A DNA stretch of 64,000 nucleotides from Novipirellula artificiosorum. Its GTDB lineage: Bacteria > Planctomycetota > Planctomycetia > Pirellulales > Pirellulaceae. Position 1 is the stretch's first letter. Each line of letters begins with the position of its first letter. The notes beneath the pieces were generated by a model. It made no database searches. It was not told the DNA's origin and was given only the letters and a program-made list of their open reading frames with translations. Below are positions 8,088 through 51,432 of this stretch, in pieces. The stretch is from the NCBI RefSeq assembly GCF_007860135.1, contig NZ_SJPV01000001.1:1051299-1115298 (forward strand), given 5' to 3'. The position numbers were made by a program, and so were the translations under genes.

Positions 8088-8191
8088 ACCGTTACCTCTC
8101 CTTTGGGGAGGTCGGCGTCTAAACGCCGGGAGAGGGCCGGTGTTGCTGCATCGAGTGAAGACCCTCCCCCTCGCTGCGCTCGACCCCTGCC
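8088..8191. repeat. intergenic GA-rich inverted repeat (family copies 1-2)
   Basis: A segment reading GGGGAGGTCGGCGTCTAAAC... then GGGAGAGGG (8106-8136) is followed by the inverted form CCCTCCCCCTCGCTGCGCTC (from 8163). The same motif, GAGAGGTCGAGC-N-AGCGAGGGAGAGGG or its complement, occurs at 8941-8972, 29660-29690 and 29741-29770. All copies are outside genes. It can form GA/CT-rich stems and is probably a dispersed intergenic repeat of this lineage. Confidence 0.6.
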
Positions 8192-8347
8192 CTCGCAGCG
8201 CTCGCTGTACCGCGCATCTCGGGTGGTGTCTAATACATCTGCGGGGTAGGTGACGAGATTTCGCTTTGGACTTTCGACAAACCGCTGCGAATGATAGTTG
8301 CCTTACGGTCCGCGCTGGTGCTGCGAACATGGGAAAGCCTGTTGCAC

Positions 8348-8600
8348 GGAGGTATGGCTCCGGTGTCCAATGATCTCTTAGAAAAGAGTCCCCGACGGTC
8401 GGTCGTCCGCCGGGAACCTGTAGCACCCTTGGCGCACCGTCGACCGGGATATCCCTTGTCAAGTTGCAACTCTGCAGAGCTCGACTCCGTTTCTACCGGC
8501 AACTGCACGATAACAAGTGAAAATAGCTCCTGCCAGCAATGATGGGACACCGGAGAGATGCCTCGAAAACCTCCTGCGCACGCTTCCGCCGGATGAGCCA
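8348..8600. repeat. dispersed 253-bp TIR-bounded repeat, copy 1
   Basis: This stretch matches 51131-51383 over 253 bp with nine substitutions and no gaps. Within it, 8349-8374 and 8539-8564 form 26-bp terminal inverted repeats (inner core CTCCGGTGTCCAAT). A second nested inverted repeat (AGTTGC/GCAACT) and the palindrome CTCTGCAGAG lie inside. Both strands are open by chance, but most copy-to-copy changes would alter amino acids in either frame, so it behaves as non-coding DNA. Here the right TIR has one extra mismatch (GGGAC for TGGAC), so this copy is probably the more decayed one. MITE-like element or structured RNA are the two readings. Confidence 0.8.
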
Positions 8601-8677
8601 AAAAACCTAGGTGCGCAAGAGCCTCAGCAAGCTTACACCTTCGCAAAAATCGGACAAGCGACGCAGTCCCCCGATCT

Positions 8678-8833
8678 CCGAGAAGGAAAGTATTCGTTGG
8701 CTCGAAGGATCTTCCCCCGAGCGTCCGCGTCAACGTGGTGCTGTGCGAAGAGGTCAATGTACCCGAAGGGGAGGATCCGATTTGCTGGATGCTGGTGACC
8801 ACCTTACCGATCGATACCGACGAGGACCTTGTG
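8678..8833 (+). pseudogene. IS4/Tn5-type transposase remnant
   Basis: One frame reads PRRKVFVGSKDLPPSVRVNV, then VVLCEEVNVPEGEDPICWML and VTTLPIDTDEDL. This pattern (V-N-V-V-L-x-E-E-V-x-x-P-E-G-E-x-P-I-x-W-x-L-L-T-T-L-P) is the conserved segment just before the YREK-type catalytic region of IS4/Tn5-superfamily transposases. It lacks the downstream 'W-x-I-E-x-F-x-x-x-L-K' part and the upstream DDE residues, so it is a short fragment. It starts 78 bp after the dispersed repeat copy 1. Confidence 0.7.
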
Positions 8834-50560: not shown

Positions 50561-51079
50561 GTGGATACCAAGCAAGCTTCCGTCAGCGTTCACATTCGTT
50601 GGATGATTCGTCGCGATATGCCGGCGGTTCTGGGAATTGAAAACCGGAGTTTCGAGTTTTCTTGGACTGAAGAAGATTTTATTCGCTGTCTTCGCCAACG
50701 CAATTGCATTGGCATGGTTGCCGAAATCGATGATCAAGTCGTGGGGTTCATGATTTATGAATTGCACAAGAACCGGCTGCACATCTTGAACTTTGCGGTT
50801 CATCCAGATGCTCGCCGCAAGGGCGTCGCGAACTCCATGGTCAACAAGTTACTCGGCAAATTGTCGCAAGAACGGCGTAACCGAATCATGTTGGAAGTTC
50901 GCGAAACGAATCTCGAGGCGCAACTGTTTTTCAAGAAAATCGGTTTCCGCGCGATTTCGGTGCTGCGAGACTTCTATGAAGACACGGTCGAAGATGCGTA
51001 CTTGATGCAGTACCGCTACGCACCAACGGCCGAGGAATTGGCACAGCCGCACAACCGGATTTCGCGGATGGCCGGTTAG
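50561..51079 (+). CDS. rimI: RimI-like GNAT N-acetyltransferase
   Basis: A 172-aa GNAT protein that probably acetylates the N-terminal alanine of ribosomal protein S18. The start is GTG 50561 with AAGGA 7 nt upstream. Motif A is LNFAVHPDARRKGVANSMV (acetyl-CoA pyrophosphate loop), and the strand LEVRETNLEAQLFFKKIGF is the RimI-type 'E-V-R-x-x-N-x-x-A-x-x-x-Y/F' region. The C-terminus is EDAYLMQYRY. It is 51 nt upstream of the dispersed repeat copy 2. Confidence 0.85.
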   Translation: MDTKQASVSVHIRWMIRRDMPAVLGIENRSFEFSWTEEDFIRCLRQRNCIGMVAEIDDQVVGFMIYELHKNRLHILNFAVHPDARRKGVANSMVNKLLGKLSQERRNRIMLEVRETNLEAQLFFKKIGFRAISVLRDFYEDTVEDAYLMQYRYAPTAEELAQPHNRISRMAG

Positions 51080-51130
51080 TTTTTGCGCTCATCCGACGGA
51101 AGCGCGCAGAACGCAGACTCGAGGTTTTTT

Positions 51131-51383
51131 GGAGGTATGGCTCCGGTGTCCAATGATCTCTTAGAAAAGAGTCCCCGACGGACGGTCGTCCGCCGGGAAC
51201 CGGTAGCACCCTTGGCGCACCGTCGACCGGGATATCCCTTGTCAAGTTGCACCTCTGCAGAGCTCCACTCCGTTTCTCCCGGCAACTGCACGATAACCAG
51301 TGAAAATAGCTCCTGCCAGCAATGATTGGACACCGGAGAGATGCCTCGAAAACCTCCTGCGGACGCTTCCGCCGCATGAGCCA
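51131..51383. repeat. dispersed 253-bp TIR-bounded repeat, copy 2
   Basis: Partner of 8348-8600 (nine substitutions, no gaps). Here the TIRs are 51132-51157 and 51322-51347, matching at 22 of 26 positions, with core CTCCGGTGTCCAAT. A stem CCCG-a-CGGAC/GTCCG-c-CGGG is intact in this copy but broken in copy 1, so it is the better-preserved one. The left flank ends GTTTTTT and the right flank starts GTTTTT, a possible target-site duplication. No intact transposase is nearby. Confidence 0.82.
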
Positions 51384-51432
51384 GTTTTTCAACGTCGTGG
51401 ACCGTCAATATTGAAACTGCGAGTTGGGACGC

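Follow-up and report, generated by a model that had tools for sequence, protein, structure and literature searches.

A predicted small RNA gene within an ISL3-type miniature element of Novipirellula artificiosorum and beside transposases of several insertion sequence families

To our knowledge, the RNAs encoded by insertion sequences (IS) that are known so far each belong to single transposon families. ISPpu9 encodes the small RNAs Asr9 and Ssr9, and ssr9, which is also found without the IS, is thought to move independently (PMC8450116), while IS110 elements use a non-coding RNA termed bridge RNA or seekRNA (PMC11208160, PMC11187229). A further motif, Rhodopirellula-1, has been described from Planctomycetes and Proteobacteria and stands without an Rfam accession in the published table (PMC2864571). 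The locus considered here lies in a 64,000-nucleotide stretch of the N. artificiosorum genome (contig NZ_SJPV01000001.1, positions 1,051,299 to 1,115,298), called the window throughout, which contains two copies of a dispersed non-coding repeat. With a probability of roughly three in four, this repeat is a non-autonomous ISL3-type miniature inverted-repeat transposable element (MITE) carrying a complete small RNA gene, and the RNA serves insertion sequences as a regulator by recognising a DNA arm adjacent to its own gene.

The window RNA resembles each of the closest described systems in part. It is a small RNA in an IS, similar in size to Asr9 and Ssr9, but Ssr9 lies on the transposase strand and is known from one IS110-type element (PMC8450116). 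With bridge RNA and seekRNA it has in common a structured, IS-encoded form with an element-specific segment, whereas it occurs in many non-IS110 elements, runs antiparallel to the transposase gene, and has a single variable segment. Its scaffold is followed by a variable segment and a conserved motif stands beside the matching DNA, as in the omega RNAs of TnpB and IscB (IS200/IS605), yet no TnpB was found in 20 carrier genomes. The element that holds the window RNA has the terminal inverted repeats (TIRs) and 8-bp A/T-rich duplications of ISL3 insertion sequences and MITEs, but the interior is an unrelated RNA gene with no remnant of a transposase gene. Neither the window RNA nor homologous RNA genes matched Rfam 15 at the gathering threshold; at a relaxed threshold only chance-level matches fell on the RNA (such as atoC at an E value of 8), and microRNA models matched a perfect ISL3 palindrome. 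A literature search on small RNAs and structured motifs associated with more than one IS family turned up no description of this RNA. The RNA matches no described family among those searched, and its novelty is provisional because the Rhodopirellula-1 motif, compared by description alone, might be the same RNA (PMC2864571).

An earlier, sequence-only reading of the window had reported a 253-bp repeat at 8348-8600 and 51131-51383, and direct comparison of the two stretches gives exactly the nine substitutions and zero gaps that it counted. Dispersal of the repeat was borne out in the 9.2-Mb window genome (G000, a 66-contig draft assembly), where a 36-mer from the MITE core has 77 matches and a reversed control pattern has 0, a number well above what chance would give. 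Searching this genome and its relatives and aligning the copies, as that reading had proposed, uncovered many more than two copies and defined their shared ends and target duplications. Alignment of all 77 genome copies with their flanks gives a modal length of 297 bp for intact copies, with ends GGCTCATCCGACGGAAGCG ... CGCTTCCGCCGGATGAGCC and 19-bp TIRs common to the intact copies. The target duplications are 8 bp long, A/T-rich, and differ between insertion sites, with exact duplications at independent sites such as AAAAATTT, AGAAAATT, CAAAGAAC, and ATCTTTCT. At 297 bp, the element has no transposase gene and is present in high copy number. The 26-bp TIRs proposed earlier are in fact a pair of inner arms; true TIRs do exist, further out.

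Copy 2 is a complete 297-bp element on the minus strand (51086-51382), its ends taken from the 77-copy alignment, with C as first base where the consensus has G. The left TIR, [G/C]GCTCATCCGACGGAAGCG (51086-51104), is identical over 19 bp in other copies and closely similar in the 1336-bp ISL3 element L143, and the right TIR, CGCTTCCGCCGCATGAGCC (51364-51382), is likewise supported by the copy alignment and by ISL3 relatives. The target-site duplication consists of AGTTTTTG on the left (51078-51085) and AGTTTTTC on the right (51383-51390), which match at 7/8 bases; the GTTTTT flanking repeats suggested earlier came close to it, although the actual unit is these 8 bp. Copy 2 begins 6 bp past the end of a gene for a GNAT acetyltransferase (50561-51079), counted from its stop codon.

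Copy 1 (8348-8599, minus strand) is the same MITE truncated on the left. About 46 bp were lost at a GGAGGT repeat, a part still visible in intact nested copies such as L002, where GGAGGT occurs in the MITE as well as in the outer repeat; in copy 1 these two are joined at that hexamer, and it is this loss of the left end that produced the 253-bp span of the first reading. The right TIR of copy 1 (8581-8599) follows from the copy alignment, and the right target-site duplication, AAAAAACC (8600-8607), has lost its left partner to the deletion, while both flanks of intact nested copies carry the same 8 bp. Copy 1 is nested in a larger dispersed repeat (window 8150-8700) extending ~200 bp on one side and 80-100 bp on the other. 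About two dozen copies, including copy 1 and L002, share AAAAAACC because they sit inside this other repeat, which spread with the MITE already in place; besides the window locus (8150-8700), about 23 further loci show this nesting. The label of IS4-type transposase remnant, given earlier to a 53-aa stretch beside copy 1, is not supported, as no Pfam match for that stretch reaches E<0.01.

An autonomous relative of the MITE was found by searching 241 genomes of the family for its TIRs. Matches occurred in 48 of these, some of which hold many copies (157+159 in G215, 20+24 in G046, and 16+13 in G216), and most TIR pairs enclose about 290-320 bp. In G205 and G206, TIR pairs with 8-bp duplications (AAAAGCCC, TTATTTAC) enclose 1335-1336 bp and a single open reading frame (ORF), 403-421 aa long, with matches to each of the three ISL3 Pfam domains (PF01610, HTH_Tnp_ISL3, Zn_ribbon_ISL3); the elements L143 and L142 are 1335-1336 bp long, with ends GGCTCATCCGAC..., 8-bp duplications, and an ISL3 transposase. 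This complete element is the autonomous relative of the MITE, and together with the shared ends, the 8-bp duplications, and about 77 copies it upholds the earlier suggestion of a MITE-type mobile element, albeit with other ends, another length, and another partner family than first put forward. Because the complete ISL3 elements share its ends and its 8-bp duplications, the MITE is probably moved by an ISL3 transposase in trans. The RNA covariance model has no match in complete ISL3 loci. The ISL3 content of the window genome comprises only C-terminal or internally deleted pieces, and in this draft the MITE is an ISL3-type element without a resident partner.

Other arrangements of ISL3 and RNA sequences were seen among the loci collected. 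L176 (625-877; G046 C1:974924-975176) holds a fold-back ISL3 MITE, a 253-bp near-perfect palindrome that bears the same TIRs and is built from two 3′ ends of the ISL3 transposase gene. In L188 (1096-1722; G000 C2:616976-617602), an ISL3 deletion derivative adjoins a second, diverged RNA copy, with a window-type MITE inserted beside it, and several loci of this kind occur in G000. The RNA apparently joins an ISL3 transposase reading frame around position 2265 of L205 (G215 C8). In L114 (1190-1530; G046), a relative of the window MITE is interrupted by another palindromic element, which shares the RNA core but has different termini (CATCCGGGGTTATCGTGGG).

The interior of the MITE contains a candidate small RNA gene of about 122 nt, composed of scaffold, variable segment, and terminator, at 51163-51284 on the minus strand of copy 2, recognised by a covariance model match of 98.2 bits, by its fold, and by covariation among homologues; the same gene lies at 8380-8501 on the minus strand of copy 1 (95.9 bits). 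In copy 2, a putative promoter with the -10-like box GGTTATCGT (51290-51298) is followed by a conserved scaffold of helices Pa, Pb, and Pc around GAAACGGA / AGGGATA (51225-51284), which the model match and covariation support, then by the variable segment V1, GACGGTGCGCCAAGG (51210-51224), and by a hairpin resembling an intrinsic terminator with a U-rich tail (51163-51199), placed by folding and a terminator survey. Arm comparison locates the two inner arms at 51131-51154, 3′ of the RNA (ATTGGACACCGGAGCCATACCTCC, minus strand), and at 51321-51354, 5′ of it (GGTTTTCGAGGCATCTCTCCGGTGTCCAATCATT, minus strand). Sequences 70-80% identical to the MITE interior are found in other genera and families, and the alignment of 16 diverse cores folds at -39.0 kcal/mol on the minus strand versus -28.1 kcal/mol on the plus strand, with compensatory changes.

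Covariation, which the sequence-only reading had proposed as a check on a possible structured RNA, was assessed in 67 non-redundant homologues (<85% identical) from several phyla, where the helices are 90-99% paired versus 56-73% when partners are shuffled. Pairing reaches 93.3% in Pa (60.9% shuffled, 20-50% slid), 89.9% in Pb (55.9% shuffled), and 99.3% in Pc (73.2% shuffled). The search pattern that collected these sequences leaves the paired positions of all three helices free and fixes about 27 others, at which conservation is no independent evidence. G-U pairs outnumber A-C mismatches 45 to 7 in Pa, which identifies the window minus strand as the transcribed one; a plus-strand RNA was rejected because its consensus energy is weaker, its G-U pairs are fewer, and terminators are more numerous on the opposite, minus strand. 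Of the homologues, 36/67 carry a TAnnnT hexamer ending exactly 4 nt upstream of the core, against a background of 0.8 per position, and the box of copy 2 stands at this peak, while a Bacteroidota-type TAnnTTTG occurs at one fixed position in 10/67. In the 100 nt downstream, 25/59 sequences have a hairpin followed by a T-run, compared with 4 on the reverse strand and 1/52 control stretches. Judged by these sequence signals, the core qualifies as a self-contained small RNA gene, about 120-140 nt long, with a predicted promoter and terminator of its own. The covariation is strong, and together with the fixed promoter box and the terminators it sustains the structured RNA, which holds together with the MITE rather than competing with it.

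The same RNA is widespread. The covariance model, built from the 16-core alignment, detects it in 85/396 genomes of the order and in 53/144 genera, often once per genome. Among the matches listed for a degenerate DNA pattern are records from Bacteroidota, Desulfobacterota, Ignavibacteria, Calditrichota, Nitrospinota, Acetobacteraceae, and Planctomycetota, and the pattern also located the RNA in two viral contigs; one carrier (L303) is Rhodopirellula solitaria CA85. Exact 20-mer scanning of the contig collection gave no match, nor did plasmid searches with the MITE and two homologues. Among the neighbours listed, a partly redundant sample, 58/81 downstream genes are convergent with the RNA, and the 47 convergent ORFs scanned are mostly transposases (IS3, 10; IS110, 9; IS256 Zn-variant/IS1249, 7; IS21, 2; IS66, 2). 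The scaffold is accordingly tail-to-tail with transposases of at least five IS families (IS3, IS110, IS256, IS21, and IS66). Elements of the planctomycete IS3 type enclose the RNA: two copies from the same genome are 99.7% identical over a stretch that starts ~163 bp upstream of the core and takes in the transposase gene. ISL3 MITEs are a further carrier in Planctomycetes.

The variable segment between scaffold and terminator varies in lockstep with an adjacent arm, which lies beside a conserved GG(A/T)TTTTTnAGGCAT motif; it is the motif that reads ATGCCTYRAAAAMCC downstream of the RNA gene or, as the reverse complement, GGKTTTTYRAGGCAT upstream. Segments score on average 19.5 with their own downstream arm versus 10.3 with the arms of others (46 sequences, p 3e-26), and 19.0 versus 11.5 for upstream arms (22 sequences, p 1e-8), p-values that apply no phylogeny model and ignore relatedness remaining after 85% clustering. 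Isolated mismatches between segment and arm are wobble-compatible in 15 cases versus 2. In L267, L036, and L256 the sole arm found lies upstream of the promoter and so outside the transcript. Antisense control of the transposase start codon, conceivable for arms that read ATGCC..., was rejected, as the arms are at the transposase 3′ side in most carriers.

Taken together, these observations would fit a passenger RNA. An ISL3 transposase acting in trans would recognise the TIRs and insert the 297-bp unit at A/T-rich sites, resulting in the 8-bp duplication. The minus strand of the MITE carries a predicted promoter, a 60-nt scaffold, a variable segment of 15-20 nt, and a predicted terminator. 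IS3, IS110, IS256, and IS21 elements, among others, carry the same RNA in several phyla, mostly in tail-to-tail orientation to their transposase gene. Its variable segment would recognise the adjacent arm and most likely adjust the expression or mobility of the carrier element, and recognition may involve DNA and a protein or may partly reflect a read-through RNA fold. Several points weigh against this account. Transcription of the RNA gene is predicted from its signals, its regulatory role is a proposal, and the p-values for arm matching are open to the residual relatedness just mentioned. In the window's own subfamily the segment-arm scores are 12-14, near the background mean of 10-12, and the MITE copies may therefore be relaxed. 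An intact cognate ISL3 was not found in the window genome, a 66-contig draft from which repeats may be lost; the copies have thus probably been left stranded, or an element that later disappeared spread them, and the action of an ISL3 transposase in trans in this genome is presumed from its relatives elsewhere.

The pairing of segment and arm could also arise in cis, if, in a read-through transcript, the segment and the downstream arm paired on either side of the terminator hairpin and so formed one larger RNA fold that has no trans target. The arm is indeed downstream in most homologues outside Planctomycetes, and the 15-to-2 excess of wobble-compatible mismatches suits an RNA duplex; several planctomycete IS3 and IS110 carriers without a detected downstream arm nevertheless keep the lockstep with an upstream arm outside the transcript, which makes a purely cis structure rather improbable.

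Somewhat less credible is a guide RNA of an RNA-guided protein, with the segment as guide, the arm as DNA target, and GG(A/T)TTTTTnAGGCAT as a motif like a protospacer-adjacent (PAM) or transposon-adjacent (TAM) motif. TnpB and Cas12 systems place the scaffold 5′, the guide 3′, and the motif 5′ of the match, a geometry that the RNA reproduces, and persistence of the lockstep in L267, L036, and L256 points the same way. However, TnpB itself was rejected as partner, with 0/20 carrier genomes above the cut-off in a search that detected its positive controls, and an IscB-type RRXRR match was likewise found in 0/20, in a search without a positive control (no control genome matched). No common protein partner adjoins the RNA, and segment-arm matches usually contain an internal mismatch or a one-base bulge. 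One candidate for a shared partner, a 492-aa ORF beside an IS3 carrier in G253 (L237; +1616 to +3076 relative to the RNA core and closely preceded by a second arm-like sequence), was discarded, since it was found in no other fetched locus except the sister copy L238.

A plain MITE, in which an internally deleted ISL3 holds neutral filler and the inner palindrome is merely part of the TIR, would explain the TIRs, duplications, and copy number, and transposase-derived ISL3 fold-backs do exist (L176); it is nonetheless very unlikely, as the interior is absent from intact ISL3 elements and is conserved with compensatory changes in several phyla and in other IS families. Least plausible is a bridge or seekRNA of IS110-type recombinases that spread to other elements, for although 9/47 convergent neighbours listed belong to the IS110 family, which uses non-coding RNA (PMC11208160, PMC11187229), the scaffold is not confined to IS110 elements but also accompanies DDE elements (beside IS3, IS21, and IS256-type transposases and in ISL3 MITEs) and IS66-type transposases, runs antiparallel to the recombinase gene with its own promoter and terminator, and appears to have one variable segment rather than two programmable loops.

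A broader proposal, held tentatively and more doubtful than not, is that these genes represent a widespread, undescribed class of IS-borne RNAs, in which one scaffold, common to many unrelated transposon families across phyla, presents a copy-specific segment for recognising a DNA arm that adjoins a conserved motif and, with a host or trans-acting protein, controls or directs the element. What the comparison brings to light is that a single structured RNA recurs, across several phyla, with transposases of unrelated families, and that a MITE spreads it in the window genome. Its sharing across families suggests that the RNA performs a service useful to transposons generally. Given the lockstep between segment and arm, a role in recognition can be tested directly, and further copies of the RNA can readily be sought with the covariance model.
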